Assembly: GCF_019565455.1 (NCBI RefSeq)
Contig: NZ_CP067377.1
Span: 1,742,001 to 1,806,000, forward strand
DNA length: 64,000 nucleotides
Direction: 5' to 3'
DNA from: Flavobacterium oreochromis
GTDB lineage: Bacteria; Bacteroidota; Bacteroidia; Flavobacteriales; Flavobacteriaceae
The notes beneath the pieces are model-generated. The model did no database searches and was not told the DNA's origin. It worked only from the letters and a program-made list of their open reading frames with translations. Position 1 is the stretch's first letter, and every line of letters starts with the position of its first letter. The position numbers and the translations under genes are program-made. Positions 1-11,022 of the stretch are shown one piece after another.

Positions 1-258
1 ACGAATACATTCTTTTTCTAATCTTCTAGAGCTGCGTATGCCATTTAAATATCCATATAAATAGATTTTAAGAAATACTTCCGCCTTGAAACTCGGACGA
101 CCTTCGGATTTTAAAACAACAGGCGTAAATCCTACTTTTTGAAGGTCTATGTATTGAACAAAAGCATCTATAAAACGAACAGGATTATCAGAAGTAATTT
201 TATCCTCTAAGCTGGATAAATGTAACTGATTACGGGAGATTCCTTGGATATGTTGCAT
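1..258 (-). mobile_element. IS1182-family transposase, N-terminal part (runs off left edge)
   Basis: The minus strand reads 86 codons without a stop from an ATG at 258 to the window edge. The product opens MQHIQGISRN and contains the features typical of the IS1182 N-terminal (DUF772-like) region: a dipeptide-rich LSSLED start, a PVRFIDAFVQ stretch, GRPSF and YLYGYLNGIRSSRRLE. The catalytic DDE part would lie outside the window. The copy looks intact as far as it can be seen. Two decayed copies of the same 5' end occur at about 3490-3545 and 4936-4975. Confidence 0.85.
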
Positions 259-343: not shown

Positions 344-358
344 GTTAGCCGATATTTT

Positions 359-940
359 ATGGAAAATCCGTCTCCGAAAAAAATTAAAGAAATTTTTGAT
401 AATTATTATCCTGTTGAATTGAAATTTTGGACTGAATTTTCTAAACATATAATTGTTCGAGAATTTTCAAAAAATGATATAATAAAAGAGTATTATAAAA
501 CTGAAAAATTCATTAACATCTTAGTTTTAGGCTCAGTTGCTCACTTTGTTCCGAATGAAGAAAAAGATATCTGCATAAATCTATATTATGAAAATGAAAT
601 TTTTAGCGATTATCTCTCTTTTCTAACCCAAAAATCTACAGTAATTAAAACAGAATGCCTTGAAGACACAATTTTATGGTCGTTAAGTTTTGAAAATTTA
701 AATATTCTTTATGAAAAAGCACATCAATCATTATTAATTGGAAAAGCAATTTCTGATATAATGTTTACTAAAAAACAGTCTGAACAAATCAATCTTTTAA
801 CTCTTTCACCGACTGAAAGATATCTGAAACTTATCAAAGAAAGACCACTTATTTTTCAAAGAACTCCATTAAAAATTATTGCTTCTTATTTAGGAATTGC
901 TCCAGAAAGTTTAAGTAGAATTAGAAAAAAGATTTCTTAA
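359..940 (+). CDS. Crp/Fnr-family transcriptional regulator
   Basis: A 193-residue protein of the usual Crp/Fnr size. Residues about 20-125 form the cyclic-nucleotide-binding-like beta roll and residues about 145-193 a C-terminal helix-turn-helix. The recognition helix region TPLKIIASYLGIAPESLSRI is typical of the flavobacterial branch. No Fnr-type cysteine cluster is visible, so an effector cannot be named. The ATG lies 15 bp inside the cassette start GTTAGCC, with the IS-end hairpin just upstream. It is followed 60 bp later by a CPBP protease gene in the same cassette. It may regulate itself or that gene; this is inference. Confidence 0.85.
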   Translation: MENPSPKKIKEIFDNYYPVELKFWTEFSKHIIVREFSKNDIIKEYYKTEKFINILVLGSVAHFVPNEEKDICINLYYENEIFSDYLSFLTQKSTVIKTECLEDTILWSLSFENLNILYEKAHQSLLIGKAISDIMFTKKQSEQINLLTLSPTERYLKLIKERPLIFQRTPLKIIASYLGIAPESLSRIRKKIS

Positions 941-1000
941 CTTTCGTCAAGCCTTTTTCTGAACTCGTTTGATATTTTTGCCAAATAATTATTTAAAACT

Positions 1001-1678
1001 ATGAAAAATAAGATTAATTATTTGGCTATTATCATTTTTTATGTTGTTGCGGTTATTTGCAGATATTTAACTAATAAAGCAGGAGTTCTTGACGGTATTG
1101 GAAATGAATATTTGAAATCTATCCTAACCGGAATTGGACCTGCTTTGGGTGCATTGGCGGTCTTTATGATTTTTAAAATAAAACCAACAATGAATTTAAA
1201 AGGGAATTATAAAAGTTTAGTTCTTCCTTTAATGATTTATTGGGTATTGCCAATTGTATTAATTTCAAGCGTCACATATTTTTCAAAAGGGACAATTCCT
1301 TGGTTGGTTATTTTATCTATTCTTGTTTACGGATTATTTGAAGAAATCGGTTGGCGGGGATTCCTATACCAAAATCTAAAAGGATTACCACTTTTCGCAA
1401 ATATTTTAATTGTTTCTTCTTTATGGTTTTTGTGGCATTTAAATTTTGAATTGACCTCTTCAAATCTGTTATTTTTCGGAATATTAATTTTGGGAAGTTG
1501 GGGAATTGGTAAAGTTGCTGACTCAACCAATTCATTAATCGCAGTTAGCGGATTCCACTCCCTTAACAATTTTTTTCCTGAGTTAGATTCAACAAAAATT
1601 TTGATATTAGTAATATTACTCACAATCTGGATTTTGGGTTTAGTTTTGAGAAAAAGATTTCAAAAAAACATCGGCTAA
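1001..1678 (+). CDS. CPBP (CAAX protease/bacteriocin-processing) family intramembrane protease
   Basis: A 225-residue protein with several membrane segments. The three ABI/CPBP motifs are present: EEIGWRGFLYQ near residue 115 (motif 1, EExxxR), WFLWHLNF near 142 (motif 2, with His) and SGFHSLNN near 183 (motif 3). These supply the glutamates and histidines of the intramembrane site. Such proteins act as membrane proteases and are often linked to bacteriocin self-immunity. The stop codon lies inside the cassette-end repeat ATCGGCTAAC. Substrate is unknown. Reading frames on the other strand here are shadows. Confidence 0.85.
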   Translation: MKNKINYLAIIIFYVVAVICRYLTNKAGVLDGIGNEYLKSILTGIGPALGALAVFMIFKIKPTMNLKGNYKSLVLPLMIYWVLPIVLISSVTYFSKGTIPWLVILSILVYGLFEEIGWRGFLYQNLKGLPLFANILIVSSLWFLWHLNFELTSSNLLFFGILILGSWGIGKVADSTNSLIAVSGFHSLNNFFPELDSTKILILVILLTIWILGLVLRKRFQKNIG

Positions 1679-1870
1679 CATCGTATATGTGCAAGAGCGG
1701 GTTAAGTGCTAAATCGAAGTTTCGGTTTTCTATGTCGCAAAATCCATTTTTTATTTCCATAAAAAATGTAAATTAGCAAATAAAAAATGGTTTTGCTTAT
1801 GTCAGTACAAAATTGAAAGTTTCGGCTTCAAAATCCGCTCCTGACACATATACGTAAACCGTTAGCACTA
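1670..1870. repeat. attC-like recombination-site candidate: ~200-bp imperfect hairpin
   Basis: Nested complementary arms can be seen, from outside in. ATCGGCTAAC (1670-1679) ends in GCTAAC, which pairs with GTTAGC of 1861-1870. CGTATATGTG (1682-1691) pairs with CACATATACG (1845-1854). GAGCGG (1695-1700) pairs with CCGCTC (1835-1840). A ~20-bp stem (1737-1756 with 1778-1796) closes a 21-nt loop. The spacers outside the L arms are 2 and 6 nt. The order R''-L''-loop-L'-R' is that of an integron attC site, but it is longer than usual and the R boxes do not fit RYYYAAC/GTTRRRY exactly. Confidence 0.55.
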
Positions 1871-3245
1871 ATTATTAAATAGACGAGAACCATAATTATT
1901 TCACTCATGAAAATTGAAGATTTATATAATACATATTTTGAAAACATAAATAGTGTTCAATCATACTTCAACAAATTTGGATCACTTGCTAATGATGAAG
2001 ACAATACTATTAAACACGACAAGGCAAAAAAAATAAAAGAAATAATTAATGATATTCTATCGGATGACGATACAGAAAATCTTGATTCAGAAAATGATAC
2101 TGATGAGACATTTACAGAGAAATCAGAAAATAATATTATAAAAACTTCGGAAATAGAATTAACAGAGCCAGAAAATTTTTCAAAACAAGAAGAACCAAAT
2201 GAATTAGAAATTCCTGAAGAAAAATCAGAAGAATTTGATGAATTTATTGAAGAACTTTTCCAAGAAGTTGATTATAGAATAAAACGAGAACACAAAATAA
2301 ATCCCAGAAACTATGAGCTTTTATCGAGAAGTTCATTTTTGATGTTAAATAATTATTTTGAGTATTTACTAGCTGACTTACTAAATTACTATTATAATAA
2401 ATTTAGAAAATCCTTAAATGACAAAGAATTTAAAATAACATTAAAAGAATTAACGGAATTTGAAAATATTGACGAAGCGATAAAAAGCCTAATAATTAAA
2501 GAAGTAGAATCAATTTTAGTTGAAAAATCTTTTAATGATTTACTTGAACATTTTGAGAAAAAATTATCTATTGGATTAGAGAAAGAACTAATTGATTGGA
2601 ATAAAATAATTGAAATAAGAGAAAGGAGACATTTAATTGTACATAACTCTTCAATCATTAATAAAAAATATATATCCAGAACTGGTAATCCCTACAAGTA
2701 CAAACTAGGAGAGGAAATATCAGTTGACTCAGTATATTTTTTACAAGCTTTAAATGAGTTTAAACTAGCTGGACAACTTCTATTATTTAATTGTTGGGGT
2801 GAATGGGATAAAAATAATATCGACAATGCTATTTATGAAATTATGGTTCAAACTTATGAAGATTTGAAAAATGAAAAATACAATCTCGTATGTAAAACAT
2901 ATAAATTTTCTGAAAGAATTGAGCCTCGAAATGATTTACAAGAAGATTATCTACTAAGAGTAAAATTTAATAATGCAATTGCTTTAAAAAAACAAAATTT
3001 AAGTAATGAATTAAAAATGGCTCTCAAAGAAATTAAAATTGGAACTTCAACTCCTATTTTTAAAATATCATATAACATATTAAATGATAATTTCGAAAAT
3101 ATAGAAGAGTTATTTCAGAAAGCTATATTACTTGATGAGATTATTATAGACCAATATTTAGAATGGCCCATTTTTGATTTTGTAAGATCCAATAAAGCAA
3201 TTAATGATAAATTAATGAATTTTTTCAATAATAACTAGTGCTAAC
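1861..3245 (+). other. Integron-like gene cassette 2 (HEPN-like motif protein)
   Basis: The unit starts GTTAGCACTA (1861-1870) and ends with the exact reverse complement TAGTGCTAAC (3236-3245), whose first three bases are the stop codon of the single gene. It is followed by repeat R copy 1 rather than by an obvious L-arm hairpin. The 10-base private terminus differs from that of cassette 1, as expected for self-complementary cassette ends rather than for transposon terminal repeats. Confidence 0.5.
1907..3238 (+). CDS. Uncharacterised protein with acidic linker and HEPN-like RHLIVH motif
   Basis: 443 residues with no signal peptide. Residues about 1-50 are helical, about 55-115 form a strongly acidic Asp/Glu-rich stretch, and about 120-290 form a helical domain. 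Near residues 240-246 it carries ERRHLIVHNS, which fits the R-x4-H signature of HEPN ribonuclease domains common in abortive-infection and toxin proteins. A further helical part follows (about 300-443). The gene is alone in its cassette and very AT-rich. A defence or toxin role is only suggested by the motif and the mobile context; the family is not recognised with certainty. Confidence 0.55.
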   Translation: MKIEDLYNTYFENINSVQSYFNKFGSLANDEDNTIKHDKAKKIKEIINDILSDDDTENLDSENDTDETFTEKSENNIIKTSEIELTEPENFSKQEEPNELEIPEEKSEEFDEFIEELFQEVDYRIKREHKINPRNYELLSRSSFLMLNNYFEYLLADLLNYYYNKFRKSLNDKEFKITLKELTEFENIDEAIKSLIIKEVESILVEKSFNDLLEHFEKKLSIGLEKELIDWNKIIEIRERRHLIVHNSSIINKKYISRTGNPYKYKLGEEISVDSVYFLQALNEFKLAGQLLLFNCWGEWDKNNIDNAIYEIMVQTYEDLKNEKYNLVCKTYKFSERIEPRNDLQEDYLLRVKFNNAIALKKQNLSNELKMALKEIKIGTSTPIFKISYNILNDNFENIEELFQKAILLDEIIIDQYLEWPIFDFVRSNKAINDKLMNFFNNN

Positions 3246-3432
3246 AGCTAAGGTTTCGTTGCGTGCGGAGCACGAACAATAAATTGTAATCACTGAACAC
3301 CAAAGCAAAATAGAAACTTAGTGAAGTAAACCATTGTTGAATGAAACTGATTGAATTCCATTTACTTACTATGAAAATTTTGAATTAAAAGTTTAATGAT
3401 ATACAAGAGGCACACTGTGCCTCTTTTTTTGA
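3246..3432. repeat. Repeat R, copy 1 (187 bp), ending in a terminator hairpin
   Basis: This segment is nearly identical to 4126-4311. Both follow directly after a cassette-end AAC and begin AGCTAAGGTTTCGTTGCG. Both contain a small hairpin CGTGC-GGA/GAA-GCACG and end with GAGGCACA-C-TGTGCCTC followed by a T run (3407-3430), a convincing factor-independent terminator. Each copy is followed directly by an IS1182-type left end. No open frame of note. It may be the rest of a cassette recombination site or a fixed part of the adjacent mobile element. Confidence 0.75.
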
Positions 3433-3625
3433 AGTCTGTATTTCGGAGTTTTTTATTGTTTCCCTTTGATACTGGATATCAATACTTGTCTTCTAAGCTG
3501 GACAAATGTAACTGATTACGCGAGATTCCTTGGATGTGTTGCCTATTTTAAAATACGAAAAATCGATTTTTTAACAAACTATTTTGGCTATATTTGACAG
3601 GGTTTGTGAAGTTTTTTCACAGACT
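3433..3625. mobile_element. Internally deleted IS1182-type element (copy B, 193 bp)
   Basis: The left end AGTCTGT (3433-3439) and right end ACAGACT (3619-3625) are inverse. Within it, 3490-3540 matches the first codons of the transposase at the left edge of the window (CTAAGCTGGA, GTAACTGATTACG, GAGATTCCTTGGAT), on the minus strand, without its ATG. Nearly all of the transposase is missing, so the copy is non-autonomous. It lies between repeat R and the GTT of cassette 3. No clear target duplication was found. Confidence 0.65.
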
Positions 3626-3628
3626 GAC

Positions 3629-4125
3629 GTTGTGTGCAAGTTTTGACGAACGAAATGTTGAAAAAATCTAATGAAAAAACTTCTATTTTTACTTATTTTA
3701 ATTTTATCTCAAAGCTGCTGGATTTGTCCTGAAAGACATAAAATTGAATTAGATAATGATACAAAAACAGTTAAAGTTCTCTCAGATGGATATTTTATAG
3801 AATCTATAAAAATGACAGAATATATTCCAAAAGAAGGATATATAGAACCAATTGATTCAAATTATGTTAATATTATTCCAGTTGGAAAACTGGAGAAAAA
3901 AATAGATTTAAATTCGATAACCAAAAATTACACTTGCACAGGAATAAACATTGAACAACTATTAACAAAGAAAGAAATTGCATTTGAAATTTGGGTTAAA
4001 AATCCAGATTTAGAAATTGGAGATGAAGATGCAAAATCGCTAGTTTATTTTGTAACTGACAGCAAAAGCAAAGGAAAAACTGTAGAAGAATCGAACGGTT
4101 GTAAATAATTAAACCTGCACACAAC
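3629..4125 (+). other. Integron-like gene cassette 3 (small lipoprotein)
   Basis: It starts GTTGTGTGCA (3629-3638) and ends TGCACACAAC (4116-4125), an exact 10-bp reverse complement, enclosing one small gene. The right terminus runs straight into repeat R copy 2. Together with cassettes 1 and 2 this gives three consecutive units whose termini are private, perfectly complementary, and always open with GTT and close with AAC. Confidence 0.5.
3671..4108 (+). CDS. Small putative lipoprotein of unknown function
   Basis: 145 residues. The N terminus MKKLLFLLILILSQSCW is a lipoprotein signal with the lipobox Cys at residue 16, so the mature protein should be anchored to a membrane. The rest is polar, mixed beta-type sequence with further cysteines (CPER right after the anchor, TCTG near residue 97, and the penultimate Cys at 144). 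No family is recognised. It is the only gene of cassette 3 and lies 45 bp behind the IS-end hairpin at 3605-3621. Confidence 0.7.
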   Translation: MKKLLFLLILILSQSCWICPERHKIELDNDTKTVKVLSDGYFIESIKMTEYIPKEGYIEPIDSNYVNIIPVGKLEKKIDLNSITKNYTCTGINIEQLLTKKEIAFEIWVKNPDLEIGDEDAKSLVYFVTDSKSKGKTVEESNGCK

Positions 4126-4311
4126 AGCTAAGGTTTCGTTGCGTGCGAAGCACGAACAATGAATTGTAATCACTGAACACCAAAACAAAATAGAAACTCA
4201 GTGAAGTAAACCTCTGTTGAACGGAACCGATTGCATTCCATCCACTCACTATGGGAATTTCGAACTAAAAGTTTAATGATATACAAGAGGCACACTGTGC
4301 CTCTTTTTTGA
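4126..4311. repeat. Repeat R, copy 2 (186 bp), ending in a terminator hairpin
   Basis: Second copy of the 3246-3432 repeat, with scattered substitutions (for example GAAGCACG for GGAGCACG, and CCGATTGCATTCC for CTGATTGAATTCC). The terminal hairpin GAGGCACA-C-TGTGCCTC is at 4287-4303 with a following T run. It follows the cassette-3 terminus AAC and precedes AGTCTGT, the left end of IS copy C. Confidence 0.75.
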
Positions 4312-5049
4312 AGTCTGTATTTCGGAGTTTTTCTGAGTGTTTTCCTTCACTTTTGTGCATAAGTACCCTTACCCATAACGTTAGCTTTTACAGGAACTTG
4401 TGTTTTGGCTAGTGGCAAGATACCAAGCAGGAGGCCCTCTTTTATCAAACACAGCTAGGGTATGCAAATATCCGTTTTTACAACAGGGACATTTAAGTAA
4501 TACTTTTGTTTTAATCTTCGTTTGTATAGGTTTTGCTTGGAGTTTTGCCTGCAAAGCAGGCAACTTATTTCGTTTCCAAGTACTACTCAAAAATCCGTAA
4601 TGTCTTATTTTGACAAAGTTTTTGGGTAGTATATGCAAAGCAAAACGCCTTGTAAACTCCCCTAAAGAAAGTGTCATTTCCTTTTTACTCCTTGTAGCTA
4701 AAAATTACCTCTTTTGCAGTCACCTCTCGGAGTCGGTGGTTGCTAATGGCTATTTTGTGGGTGTAACGTCCTAAATATTCCACTACTGATTTTGGACTAC
4801 CAAAAGGCTTCTTGGCATAAACCACGCAGTTCTTTTGTCATGGTTATTCTTTTATAGCCCATATTGCTCAGGGGCTTGACTAAAGAACAAAGCACAAAAC
4901 TTGGCTCTAAAGACTTTGTATAAAACTTTTACTGAGAATTCTAGAGAGATTTCCTAGATGTGTGCATTGTTAAGAATGCGAAATATTTTATTTTTAAACT
5001 AATTATTTTAGATATATTTGAAAAGGGATGTGAAGTTTTTTCACAGACT
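4312..5049. mobile_element. Chimeric IS remnant (copy C): IS1182-type ends around an IS91 fragment
   Basis: AGTCTGT (4312-4318) and ACAGACT (5043-5049) are the same inverse ends as in copy B. The right ~110 bp (4936-5049) resemble the other copies of the IS1182-type end, including TATATTTG (5013-5020) and the TGTGAA/TTCACA hairpin. The interior (4381-4935) is instead an IS91-type transposase fragment. The element has therefore been disrupted by a second insertion and deletion. Confidence 0.6.
4381..4935 (-). pseudogene. IS91-family transposase, C-terminal fragment with frameshifts
   Basis: Three minus-strand frames join into the C-terminal half of an IS91-type transposase: VKVLYKVFRAKF (near 4925-4890), then VVYAKKPFG ... 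YLGRYTHKIAISNHRL (about 4835-4705), then MTLSLGEFTRRFALHILPK ... RIRHYGF-like KIRHYGF (4677-4590) and a CPCC zinc-binding motif near 4500. A one-base slip separates the last two blocks near 4680, and another separates the first two. The N-terminal HUH part is missing. It is a dead relic inside copy C of the IS1182-type element. Confidence 0.8.
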
Positions 5050-5052
5050 GGC

Positions 5053-5062
5053 GTTGTGCGTC
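5053..5062 (+). repeat. Cassette-start motif without visible partner (GTTGTGCGTC)
   Basis: GTT plus seven bases follows directly on the third IS end, exactly as at 344 and 3629, and precedes the ABC-transporter pair. Its reverse complement GACGCACAAC is not found after the ABC gene. There, GGCTAAC (6045-6051) is seen instead, so the 3' end of this cassette seems to have been lost or exchanged. Confidence 0.4.
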
Positions 5063-5101
5063 ATTATCGATAACCGCACAAAGAACAAATGAATCTTCAT
5101 T

Positions 5102-5374
5102 ATGAAACTGAAATTATATTGGGAATTTTATAAAAGTGTATTATTTATAAATCTGTTTTTATTAATCATTTCTTTAGTGTTTAATCCAAGTAGTGTAGTT
5201 GTAAATTTGTCATTTTTAGCAATTCCTATTATTTATTTTTACAAAGAACAATTTAGAAAAAATGAGTACTATTTTTACTATAATATGAATATTAGTAAAC
5301 TGAAATTAATATCGTTCTGTTTTCTTTTAAACTTTGGAATATCAATTATTATTTTGTTGATTAATGGAATATAA
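5102..5374 (+). CDS. Small membrane protein, probable partner of the ABC ATPase
   Basis: 90 residues with about three hydrophobic segments (about 12-27, 33-46 and 70-88) and a short polar, Tyr-rich part between. It overlaps the downstream ATPase gene by 11 bp, so the two are very likely translationally coupled and may form one transporter. It is much smaller than an ordinary ABC permease. No family recognised. It is the first gene after the third IS end and its outward-facing TATATTTG. Confidence 0.6.
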   Translation: MKLKLYWEFYKSVLFINLFLLIISLVFNPSSVVVNLSFLAIPIIYFYKEQFRKNEYYFYYNMNISKLKLISFCFLLNFGISIIILLINGI

Positions 5375-6038
5375 ATTAGAAATTGACAGCGTAAATAAAT
5401 CATTTGGCGGAAAAAAAGTATTATCAGATATATATTTAAAATGTGAAATTGGTGAAATAGTTGGGATTTTTGGTAGAAATGGAAGCGGGAAATCAACGCT
5501 TCTAAAAATATTATTTGGAACTTTAAAAGCAGAAAACAGTTTTATAAGACTTAACAATAAAGTGTTAACTCAATCATTTAAAATGGAAAACGGGATTTCA
5601 TATTTGCCACAAAATAATTTTATTCCAAATAATTTTTCAGTTATAAAAACTGTAAATCTAACAATCGAAGAAAATAGAGTTGACGAGTTTTGGGAGGATA
5701 ATATTATACAGAAACTAAAAAATTCTTCAGTCGGCGAACTATCAGTCGGTGAATTAAAATATCTACAAATCAAATTAATTTTATTTAATAAGTCTAAATT
5801 TTGTCTTTTAGATGAACCTTACAGCGGAATTTCTCCAGCAATTGCAACCGAAATTAATAAACAAATAAAAGAACAATCAAAAAATAAAGGATTAATAATA
5901 ACAGACCATAACTACTCGCATTTATTGGAAATTACAACTAAAATATACTTGATAAATAAAGGATGTGGAAGATATTTAGAAAATGAAACTGAATTAGTTA
6001 AATTTGGTTATCTAAATGAAGGAATGCTAAAAAAATAA
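5364..6038 (+). CDS. ABC transporter ATP-binding protein
   Basis: 224 residues, one nucleotide-binding domain. Walker A GRNGSGKST lies near residues 38-46, a degenerate signature SVGELSVGELKYLQ near 121-134 (no classic LSGGQ), Walker B FCLLDEP near 148-154, and the switch His in ITDHNYSH near 180. It starts inside the upstream membrane-protein gene. The tiny two-gene transporter resembles export/immunity systems carried on mobile DNA, but no substrate can be named. The gene is followed by GGCTAACAT, similar to the cassette-end boxes. Confidence 0.85.
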   Translation: MEYKLEIDSVNKSFGGKKVLSDIYLKCEIGEIVGIFGRNGSGKSTLLKILFGTLKAENSFIRLNNKVLTQSFKMENGISYLPQNNFIPNNFSVIKTVNLTIEENRVDEFWEDNIIQKLKNSSVGELSVGELKYLQIKLILFNKSKFCLLDEPYSGISPAIATEINKQIKEQSKNKGLIITDHNYSHLLEITTKIYLINKGCGRYLENETELVKFGYLNEGMLKK

Positions 6039-8265: not shown

Positions 8266-8370
8266 CTGCTAACAGTGTGGCTATTTCAAAGCTATCATTT
8301 TTTAAAAATAATATAAAAGTCATAAAAAAATAAGCTTGTTTAATTATTTTTAAGTACACTATCTTAAACG

Positions 8371-8554
8371 GAGGCTGTCCTAAAAGTAAAAAATCAACAC
8401 ACAGTTTGTCACTCCGACGTAAGGAGGAATCTCATAATCAGTACTATGTTGTAATTTGCCTGTTCGAGCGGAGCTCTCGGGTCTCCCTTTGATCGACTAG
8501 AGCAAAGCGTGGACGAAGTCAAATGACAAGATTGCGGACTTTTTGGACAGCCTC
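8371..8554. repeat. MITE-like element with 17-bp terminal inverted repeats (184 bp)
   Basis: The left end GAGGCTGTCCTAAAAGT and the reverse complement of the right end GAGGCTGTCCAAAAAGT agree at 16 of 17 positions. The interior has no gene and contains GTCACTCCGACGTAAGGAGG, reminiscent of short dispersed repeats in flavobacterial genomes. It fills most of the 483-bp gap between the DsbA-like gene and the S37 peptidase gene. The rest of the gap (8266-8370, 8555-8748) is AT-rich and shows nothing else. Confidence 0.7.
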
Positions 8555-8748
8555 TTAGTGAGATACTACAAGAGCGTCTTAAAAGGCTACAAACAAATCA
8601 TTTTTATTAGAGATAAAAATCTCGTAATATTCGCTATAATATAGATTCATACAAACTTGTTTTTCTAATATATTTCTTTTGAATAATTAGAATGAGGCTA
8701 AAATAGTGAGCTTATATTTTTAGATATTCTTATTCATTTAATATACAC

Positions 8749-10044
8749 TTATTGTAACCACTTTATTAATATGTTCATTATTTTTTGTTGATCTTCTTTT
8801 GAAAAATGTTTAATTCTTGTGGCATGTGTTCCTTGTGGAAGCACCATTTTTAAAGCGTCTAGTTTTTCATTAGGGGTAGGAGAGCAAGCATACCAAGGAT
8901 CTAAGCCACCATAAATATATAAAATTTTAGTTCCCTTTTTTTCTGTATAATCGCGTACTTGTTTAATATAAGATTTATCGTATTTCAAATCTATATTTCT
9001 AGGAGCAAATCTACTGTTACTAGGTGATTTAACAATACGTAGTAAGTCTTTTACAGGATTCAGATCAAAACCATAATAACCTAATTCTGTAAAGTGTTGA
9101 TAAAAAGAAGGTAATAGTCTATAAACTCCTTTGTCAGAATAGACATCAAAACCAACTATATGATTTAAATAATCAAACAATTCTTTAGGAGTAGCATTTA
9201 GTTGAGGAATCTTATCACAATTAGCATTCCATTGCCAAAAAGAAAAAGGTAATTCTAGAACCGCGTATTCAAATGCTTCTGAAATAGGCACTTCATTAAA
9301 AGTTAAATTGTTTTTTTTAGCATGAGTGGCAATTTCTATTTCAATAGCTGTCCTATTAAGCATTAATTGTCTTTGAGTTTGTATGATTGAATTTCTGCAT
9401 TCTGTTGTACCTGCTGTAGTTGTATAATGTTTAATAGTTCGTTCGTCTTCTGTGCCGTTTATCATGGGTGCTACATAAGGTATGGCCACATCGATATCAT
9501 TAGGATATTTAGATTTATAAATTAAGGTTGTTTCGCCTCCTTTACTTATACCTGTAGAAATCCATTTTCCTGAGTATATTTTTTTTAATTTTTCTACTAT
9601 TTTATGGTAATCCTCTATAGCTTGATTGTTAGTTAAGTATTGCCAAGGAATAGGGTTAGGTCTAGAACCGCCGTAAAAGCGATATTCTATTATTAATTGA
9701 TTGGCATCTAATAATGAGGTTACTTCATTTTTTTCATAACGGGCATCATAACCTTCCGTTTCAATAACCATAGGTTTTGAAAAATCCTTATGAGACAGAT
9801 AAATACAATGTTTAAAAGTACCTTTTGATAAGTCATTATGATCTAAAGGTTCGTCGAGTACAATTTTATAAGATTCTGTGAAATCTTTAAGATTGTTAAT
9901 CTTTTCGATACTAGCTTTGTTAAAAATTTCTTGAAGCTTTAGTAGTAAATTTAGTTTATCCTGTCCAATACAATTAATGCTAAAAAGGGAAAATAGAGTA
10001 ACAAATAAAAAGCAAGAATTTTTCATTTTAAAATTTTTAATCAA
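8749..10044 (-). CDS. Secreted S37-family prolyl tripeptidyl aminopeptidase
   Basis: 431 residues with a signal peptide; translation may start at the second Met (residue 7, 10026). The alpha/beta-hydrolase nucleophile motif GISKGGET places the catalytic Ser at 167. The Asp is probably D382 in GGLDPW and the His H407 in GTHATR. The surrounding EYRFYGGSRP and PYVAPM are typical of the PS-10/S37 family, which removes proline-ended tripeptides from peptide N termini. It lies next to an AraC regulator and the hydroxyproline pathway, suggesting it handles collagen-type peptides. The link is inferred. Confidence 0.85.
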   Translation of the reverse strand: MIKNFKMKNSCFLFVTLFSLFSINCIGQDKLNLLLKLQEIFNKASIEKINNLKDFTESYKIVLDEPLDHNDLSKGTFKHCIYLSHKDFSKPMVIETEGYDARYEKNEVTSLLDANQLIIEYRFYGGSRPNPIPWQYLTNNQAIEDYHKIVEKLKKIYSGKWISTGISKGGETTLIYKSKYPNDIDVAIPYVAPMINGTEDERTIKHYTTTAGTTECRNSIIQTQRQLMLNRTAIEIEIATHAKKNNLTFNEVPISEAFEYAVLELPFSFWQWNANCDKIPQLNATPKELFDYLNHIVGFDVYSDKGVYRLLPSFYQHFTELGYYGFDLNPVKDLLRIVKSPSNSRFAPRNIDLKYDKSYIKQVRDYTEKKGTKILYIYGGLDPWYACSPTPNEKLDALKMVLPQGTHATRIKHFSKEDQQKIMNILIKWLQ

Positions 10045-10170
10045 AATTGATTCAAATAGAAATTCAAAAAGGATAGTATATTAACTTAATATTATTTAAT
10101 ATTAACTACTTGAGCAATATTTTAAAAATAGAAACCTTGCTTGTTAAGAATTTTAATATTGAATAAAATA

Positions 10171-11022
10171 TTAACTTTTGAATCTTTTCCGATAATTCAT
10201 AGGAGATATCTTTTTAATCTCTTTAAATTTTCTATTGAAATTAGAAATGTTATTAAAACCAGTTAGTTCGGCAATTTCTATAACACTTATTTCATTGTCA
10301 GAGGTTAAAAGGCGAGAGGCTTTTTCTATACGTAATTCAATTAAAAATTGAAAAAAAGTTTTGTTTGTTCTAATTTTAAAATACCTACAAAAAGCATTTT
10401 TAGTCATATTAGCGATATCCGCAATTTCTTCTAAAGATATTTTTTTATCAAAATTATTCATTACAAATTCATATACAACTTGCATACGTTTACCTTCAGA
10501 ATCAGTAATGTCTTTATCATATCTAAAAGATGAAAGTGATTTTTTTTTAGAGGCAGCCAGTTTATTTAGTAATTGTAAAAATTTGATAAACTTAGTGGTA
10601 TCTTTTGCTGTAGCCAATTCAAACATCAGTAAATAAATTTTTTCCTTTTTAGATAATACCCTATAGCCATTGCGAGTATCATTAAAAAAGTCTAATATCT
10701 TTGTTGATTCAGGAAGTACTTGTAGACTTTCTTTGATTACGGTGGCGTCAAAAAAAATAGAATGAACTAAACTAAATTCTTCATCTTTATTTACATCACT
10801 TCTAAAGACATGAGGTAAATTACTACCAAAAACAATAATGTCACCTGAGTTATATTCTGATATTGTATCTCCTACTATTATTGTTCCTTCTCCTTTTTCA
10901 ATATAACTAATTTGAATTTCTTCATGTTGGTGAAGCTTATCATATAACACTAATTCTTTATCAAATTGATAGATAATAGCCTCTTCTTTTGTCTTGGGTA
11001 TTTTAAAAGGGAATACTTTCAT
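10171..11022 (-). CDS. AraC-family transcriptional regulator
   Basis: 283 residues. The N-terminal half is a cupin sensor domain (HQHEEIQISYIEKGEGTI near residues 32-50, GDIIVFGSNLPH near 61-72). The C-terminal ~100 residues carry two helix-turn-helix motifs, SLEEIADIANMTKNAFCRYFK and VIEIAELTGFNNISNFNRKFK, ending SPMNYRKRF. It is divergent from the hydroxyproline operon (159-bp gap) and downstream of nothing else, so it is the likely local regulator. The inducer is probably a hydroxyproline-related compound (inference). Confidence 0.88.
   Translation of the reverse strand: MKVFPFKIPKTKEEAIIYQFDKELVLYDKLHQHEEIQISYIEKGEGTIIVGDTISEYNSGDIIVFGSNLPHVFRSDVNKDEEFSLVHSIFFDATVIKESLQVLPESTKILDFFNDTRNGYRVLSKKEKIYLLMFELATAKDTTKFIKFLQLLNKLAASKKKSLSSFRYDKDITDSEGKRMQVVYEFVMNNFDKKISLEEIADIANMTKNAFCRYFKIRTNKTFFQFLIELRIEKASRLLTSDNEISVIEIAELTGFNNISNFNRKFKEIKKISPMNYRKRFKS

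Follow-up and report, generated by a model that had tools for sequence, protein, structure and literature searches.

In integrons, the gene for a tyrosine recombinase lies beside an attI-like site, the cassettes stand in tandem with one polarity, the sites carry outer and inner hairpin arms, and each cassette has 5' bases complementary to the box that closes it. All of these features, the attI-like site at several loci, recur in a cassette system of Bacteroidota to which, very probably, four cassettes (one of them truncated) belong that lie in a stretch of the Flavobacterium oreochromis genome (contig NZ_CP067377.1, positions 1,742,001 to 1,806,000 of the forward strand; 64,000 nucleotides, referred to as the window); in the same reading, the arrays of this genome are decaying remnants with an IS1182-related element. 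The system departs from integrons in that its recombinase lacks the IntI-specific insertion and has an extra N-terminal domain, in that its boxes resemble GTTRBNNGYM and not GTTRRRY, and in that recombinase and cassettes run in the same direction in one of its two layouts (type A, see below), whose spacer lengths also differ. With XerA, XerC, and XerD, the family recombinase has the catalytic core in common, but it scores below the XerA cut-off and sides with IntI in a phylogenetic tree. IS1111-attC elements are insertion sequences (ISs) that target attC; as with these elements, an IS end adjoins cassette starts at many attC-like sites here, but the transposase is of the DUF772/IS1182 type and not of the IS1111 type. 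Finally, gene uptake in Riemerella anatipestifer involves, as here, a gene with short flanks, for which an attC-like fold has been noted, and no recombinase is named there.

An earlier note on the window, made from its letters alone, had suggested a divergent or undescribed integron-like system and a search for a tyrosine recombinase near an array. The reading is supported, and the search succeeded: a broken copy of such a gene lies in the F. oreochromis genome and intact copies lie beside arrays in relatives, which also hold attC-like sites, genes of one polarity, and, at several loci, an attI-like start.

Recombinase genes, cassette arrays, and their sites

Like the earlier note, we saw no integrase in the window itself. 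The F. oreochromis genome (a single contig of 3.54 Mb) contains a tyrosine recombinase pseudogene with two in-frame stops at 3.27 Mb, upstream of another array and on the same strand. The open first part of this pseudogene is similar to the XerA and integron integrase models, and, as judged by eye, the cassette behind it starts ~120 bp past the gene end; this cassette begins with GTTAGCAGTA and closes with TACTGCTAAC. Recombinase matches at E ≤ 1e-20 were found in 31 of 150 genomes, 12 of them at ≥45% identity (F. oreochromis being included in both counts). Using a chain test on 16 flanks, we detected arrays in five, i.e., L078 (11 cassettes), L079 (17), L082 (6), L086 (19), and L089 (15), while the maximum in 66 shuffled sequences was 5.

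We then relied on a larger set, for which a collection of species genomes was scanned with the family alignment. Among at least 582 stretches (at least 566 confirmed), the best 80 (L094 to L173), which, as far as they were recognised, we take to be all from Bacteroidota, are referred to as the named loci. At least two linked cassettes were present in 17 of the 80 named loci and in none of 80 shuffled ones, with 78 and 4 links, respectively. These 17 loci are divided between two layouts: in type A (9 loci), the array lies downstream of the recombinase gene and on its strand, and in type B (8 loci), it lies upstream and is read on the opposite strand, as in the divergent arrangement of classical integrons. 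Type B hosts include Maribacter, Winogradskyella, Kriegella, Chryseobacterium, and others, as well as the genome G022. The longest open reading frame (ORF) points to the cassette's own site in 97 of the 100 scored type A cassettes (106 in all) and in 13 of 15 type B cassettes. Among 14 type A loci examined, 10 have an attI-like start 109 to 555 bp behind the recombinase, which in 6 cases is close to TGCGTATATTA..GAGTT; of the other four, one has an ordinary site at this position and three have no attI-like start.

To compare boxes, we defined sites by the inner stem only, leaving the boxes unused. In the 80 named loci, 6 to 7 of the 7 private box bases matched within the cassette in 63 of 286 consecutive site pairs and across the site in 8 of 286. 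Units of the form GTT(N7)-ORF-(N7 complement)AAC, for which the earlier note had proposed to search related genomes, exist there. The 17 named loci and five further arrays make up 22 loci with 164 sites, a few of which are false or attI-like. The 130 start boxes comprise 87 different ones, so that the refuting condition named in the earlier note, fixed ends of one transposon family, does not hold; the poor fit to GTTRRRY that had been noted in the window extends to this set, in which 7 boxes conform and the consensus is roughly GTTRBNNGYM.

A typical site consists of a closing box ending in GCTAAC, 1 to 3 bases, an inner arm (e.g., CGGTTTCATGAA), a variable middle, and the complementary inner arm, followed by 5 to 7 bases that often end in GAC and then by GTT and the next cassette's box; in type A loci, the two spacers are mostly 1 to 2 and 5 to 7 nt long. 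This is the anatomy of attC, with outer R''/R' pairing, an inner L''/L' stem, and unpaired spacers. We scored the inner stem in L078 and L079, using 25 sites (28 minus 3 that were dropped) from chains whose detection had not involved the stem. The mean score was 11.9 (minimum 9.3). Swapping right halves within an array reduced it to 8.0, with 9.4 as the maximum among 200 such means, and shuffling the spacers reduced it to 4.3. Because swapping partners lowers the score, the inner arms covary site by site.

A scan of 12 loci uncovered one exactly duplicated cassette and further near-identical repeats. In L079, an identical segment of 484 bp, comprising a cassette, its site, and GTT, is present twice, the two copies being separated by another cassette. 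On the right, the identity stops directly after GTT; on the left, it extends 27 bp further into the two similar preceding sites. L155 and L164 contain further repeats of 561 to 695 bp that are at least 99% identical. In addition, G022 has an 85% identical copy of the site at 1680 to 1860 of the window, with the same closing box; the cassette that this shared site ends begins with GTTAGCCGAT, as does the window cassette, but has a different gene inside and is followed by a different cassette.

The cassette rule, the covarying inner stem, the attI-like motif, the adjoining recombinase, the polarity, and the exact duplicate can all be read directly from the sequence. From these features, we infer single-strand folding, circles, a cut point, and a role of the recombinase in cassette movement. 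In the mechanism that we propose, the tyrosine recombinase would pair the attI-like site beside its own gene with a hairpin formed by one strand of an attC-like site, and cassettes would enter or leave in circular form, with the exchange at GTT. If recognition relies on the hairpin fold of the site, then the outer box would be free to vary as long as a cassette's opening bases are complementary to the box at its own end; private self-complementary ends would arise because such recognition needs pairing and not a fixed box sequence.

The recombinase and its relation to IntI

The best solved relative of the recombinase is the integron integrase 2A3V (sequence E 2.7e-40; fold E 7.5e-15), and the alignment to 2A3V breaks in two at the IntI-specific insertion. 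In all 90 family proteins analyzed, the distance from Arg I to His II is 89, 90, or 92 residues (78, 4, and 8 proteins, respectively), compared to 131 residues in 10 of 10 canonical IntI proteins of the same phylum. The family, therefore, lacks the additional domain around patch III, which PMC9668308 describes as a defining characteristic of IntI that is needed for recombination. Three family proteins score 200 to 210 bits with TIGR02249 (cut-off, 265) and 197 to 215 bits with the XerA model NF040815 (curated cut-off, 220). Across 69 aligned proteins, Arg 210, Lys 235, His 299, Arg 302, and Tyr 334 never vary, and His 325 almost never does. The N-terminal domain of ~60 to 75 residues has the order beta-beta-alpha-beta-beta-alpha in a structure model; no convincing relative of it was found, the HARP domain of SMARCAL1, compared by fold and sequence, being an uncertain candidate. 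When 105 rows were placed in a tree, the family clustered with IntI and away from five Xer-type proteins of the F. oreochromis genome (support 100/99), albeit with long outgroup branches and with six family rows outside the main family branch.

Canonical IntI and the N-terminal domain were also searched for in 395 genomes of the phylum, in most of which scoring was limited to some of the first-look candidates. Canonical IntI above the TIGR02249 cut-off is present in 105 genomes, of which 104 are marked as same phylum only; among the four genomes of the same class or closer, G291 alone passes this cut-off. The N-terminal domain has matches at E ≤ 1e-6 in 55 genomes, including F. oreochromis and 14 others of its genus. 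For Bacteroidetes proper, the IntegronFinder 2.0 paper reports a complete integron in Salinibacter (PMC9024848).

We considered whether the window belongs to an ordinary chromosomal integron with a canonical IntI elsewhere in the genome, the window itself being a cluster of attC sites without an integrase (CALIN). The integron-like architecture and the occurrence of canonical IntI in the phylum are compatible with this explanation. However, no match to TIGR02249 at E ≤ 1e-40 was obtained in the F. oreochromis genome among the 5 of 37 first-look candidates that were scored, the recombinase that adjoins the arrays is of the type without the IntI insertion, and only the 7 of 130 boxes mentioned above fit GTTRRRY, making this explanation improbable. 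The system has a recombinase gene beside the cassette array and attC-type sites; it has neither the IntI-specific domain nor the GTTRRRY R box. It would function like an integron yet is best regarded as a new variant and not as a member of this class.

Two side observations concern tyrosine recombinases. The recombinases of L060, L061, L062, L065, and L067 have ~600 residues and, by eye, seemingly several N-terminal repeats of the family domain; the 15-cassette array of L089 adjoins the ~600-residue recombinase of L062. In the F. oreochromis genome, the regions at 732 to 770 kb and 897 to 949 kb contain many tyrosine recombinases in near-identical repeated sets, which are perhaps repeated mobile elements.

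The cassettes of the window and the IS1182-related element

The three consecutive units with self-complementary ends and the fourth start at 5053 that the earlier note had described are present in the window, letter for letter. The cassettes and sites below are on the plus strand. Cassette 1 (344 to 1679) opens with the box GTTAGCCGAT (344 to 353) and closes with ATCGGCTAAC (1670 to 1679), which are complementary in 7/7 private bases. It contains an ORF without a Pfam family (359 to 940) and a second one for an Rce1-like CAAX protease according to Pfam (1001 to 1678). Its site (1680 to 1860) has the inner arms CGTATATGTG and CACATATACG, with the short spacer AT on the left and the longer spacer TAAACC on the right, and is the sole ordinary attC-like site between 344 and 5062, the part on which the earlier note reported. 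Cassette 2 (1861 to 3245) opens with GTTAGCACTA at 1861, closes with TAGTGCTAAC (3236 to 3245), and contains an ORF of 443 aa without a Pfam family (1907 to 3238). The site behind it (3246 to 3628) is filled by a ~390-bp IS1182-related repeat, AACAGCTAAGG...CACAGACTGACGTT. Cassette 3 (3629 to 4125) opens with GTTGTGTGCA and closes with TGCACACAAC (4116 to 4125), the boxes matching in 7/7 bases within the cassette and in 1/7 across; its ORF of 145 aa (3671 to 4108) also has no Pfam family. The following site (4126 to 5052) again contains the ~390-bp repeat, here split by the remnant of a Y2 transposase (Pfam Y2_Tnp; 4381 to 4677, minus strand). Cassette 4, the end of which is lost (5053 to 6038), opens with GTTGTGCGTC and has an ORF without a Pfam family (5102 to 5374) and a second one for an ABC transporter ATPase (Pfam; 5364 to 6038). 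We found no closing box for it in 4.5 kb downstream, the best candidate matching in 5/7 bases.

Upstream of cassette 1, positions 1 to 343 are part of an IS1182-family element, the right end of which (...CACAGACTGAC) adjoins the cassette. Its DUF772 transposase (Pfam) is represented in the window by the first 86 codons (1 to 258, minus strand) of an open frame of 520 codons that runs into the flank; in the flank fetched from the same genome, the whole frame is at 4697 to 6259 of L024.

The ~390-bp repeat (3243 to 3631 of the window), which separates some of the units, allowed us to fix unit borders without looking at the boxes. With 3236 to 3660 as the query, the genome contains 20 matches. 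In six repeat clusters (L022 to L027), we compared the end of one repeat with the start of the next within 3.6 kb, giving eight pairs. The private 7 bases matched in 7/7 in three pairs and in 6/7 in two, and the remaining three pairs had 5/7, 3/7, and 2/7. The last two values are low because each pair skips an ordinary attC-like site (1680 to 1860 of the window and 10480 to 10598 of L025); measured to the skipped site, both pairs reach 7/7. In this genome, ordinary sites survive at both of these positions and, as judged by eye, inside L027. The site in L025 closes a further cassette (8336 to 10598), GTTATGCACA..TGTGCATAAC, whose ORF at 9517 to 10497 was named by eye as DNA cytosine methyltransferase-like.

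That the repeat between units 2 and 3 and between units 3 and 4 holds IS1182-related sequence was absent from the earlier note, as was the ordinary site at 1680 to 1860. In fact, sequence of the IS1182-type element with the DUF772 transposase fills many sites of the F. oreochromis genome. The right end of the element halts at GTT beside a cassette start, and this arrangement is repeated at 3606 to 3631 and 5030 to 5055 of the window. Elsewhere in the genus, in nine stretches of other genomes (L226 to L234), we identified 12 right ends of the element next to cassette-like starts; within 3.5 kb of these, a closing box matched in 7/7 bases for 3 and in 6/7 for 3 (a degree of matching that can arise by chance), while 6 had none. 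The element may target these sites as an IS, or it may be an IS that became part of them. The arrays of this genome, including those of the window, are probably decaying leftovers.

The abundance of the element at the sites of this genome, and its right end before cassette-like starts elsewhere too, would also fit arrays made by transposition, in which the units are cargo between IS1182-type copies and the box pairing is a by-product of palindromic targets. We regard this as slightly less probable still than a CALIN: the complementarity spans the gene and not the site, the boxes vary between copies, the cassettes of relatives have sites of 116 to 152 bp that are unlike the element, and L078, L079, L086, and L098 (Flavobacterium difficile) contain element-free arrays with intact box pairing. 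Finally, the inverted repeats in sites next to gene ends could suggest that the private ends form hairpins of terminators or operon ends without a link to mobility, but this is very unlikely given that a private box pairs across the whole gene, hundreds of bases off, that an identical cassette and site occur at two places, and that an attI-like start lies beside the recombinase.

Several observations weigh against our reading of the window and its relatives as a cassette system. Only 5 of the 16 flanks have clear arrays, and the chain of 6 in L082 barely exceeds the highest shuffle; the remaining 11 are not above the shuffle maximum, one of them (G022) having an array upstream on the other strand. 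Similarly, 63 of the 80 named loci have fewer than two linked cassettes in the fetched flanks. Among these, the contigs stop soon behind the recombinase in L094, L119, L123, and L166, while those of L095, L097, and L125 do not end near the recombinase yet show no linked cassettes. No cassette is shared by any two of the 22 loci (130 cassettes compared). In other genomes, we examined nine homologues of cassettes 1 and 4 of the window, none with a cassette box 260 bp or less from the match. In the F. oreochromis genome, the 390-bp sites seem by eye, unscored, to be without the inner stem of ordinary sites. Moreover, when the previous cassette's box was used as a control, it scored the same as the within-cassette comparison in three of the eight pairs (5/5, 2/2, and 6/6). 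These ties occur because adjoining cassettes can have similar boxes, and the eight pairs are therefore weak evidence if taken alone.

Gene uptake in Riemerella, tet(X3), and plasmids

Beyond the window, we see somewhat better than even chances that Bacteroidia possess a second kind of integron without the IntI domain, in which sites are read perhaps via the N-terminal domain and which has both divergent and co-directed layouts, that this is the machine behind capture in Riemerella, and that tet(X3) was once its first cassette before it spread. If so, cassette capture at folded sites works in another way as well, or arose more than once, and a cassette pool in Flavobacterium, Maribacter, Chryseobacterium, and their kin has been missed by current tools. 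The system would also provide a testable enzyme and site for homology-free gene uptake in Riemerella and a concrete hypothesis for the first mobilisation of tet(X).

In R. anatipestifer, according to PMC13148043, a resistance gene with a 27-bp 5' flank and a 140-bp 3' flank was inserted without homology, and the authors remark on an attC-like fold and leave the uptake mechanism open; the word "recombinase" is absent from the main text. The cassette system described here is a natural candidate for this mechanism, the two being likened by description and not by sequence.

Among 25 of 176 matching plasmid records, 22 (21 from Acinetobacter and one uncultured) hold a related recombinase piece, which is ~52 to 53% identical over residues 125 to 352. 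In pHH1107 (L204, 4028 to 6120), a truncated relative of the recombinase, annotated TnpF, lies immediately before tet(X3). The tpnF/xerD-tet(X3) arrangement as such is already known from PMC7722449 and PMC7494873, the former ascribing transfer of tet(X3) to ISCR2; the words "integron" and "attC" are absent from the main texts of both. Inspected by eye, the gap between TnpF and tet(X3) is attI-like, and the stretch after the resistance gene looks like an attC-like site's left half. Against tet(X3) as a cassette, the two boxes in pHH1107 agree in 4/7 bases only, and the scan of this plasmid found no linked cassette. Judging from the gene order and these partial sites, tet(X3) on pHH1107 possibly occupies the first-cassette position of a broken platform.

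A plasmid of Chryseobacterium sp. SNU WT5 (L205, 8001 to 17041) carries a family recombinase followed by cassettes. This stretch also has a second type of hairpin, GGCCAGCTCGGC...GCCGAGCTGGCC, which occurs four times.

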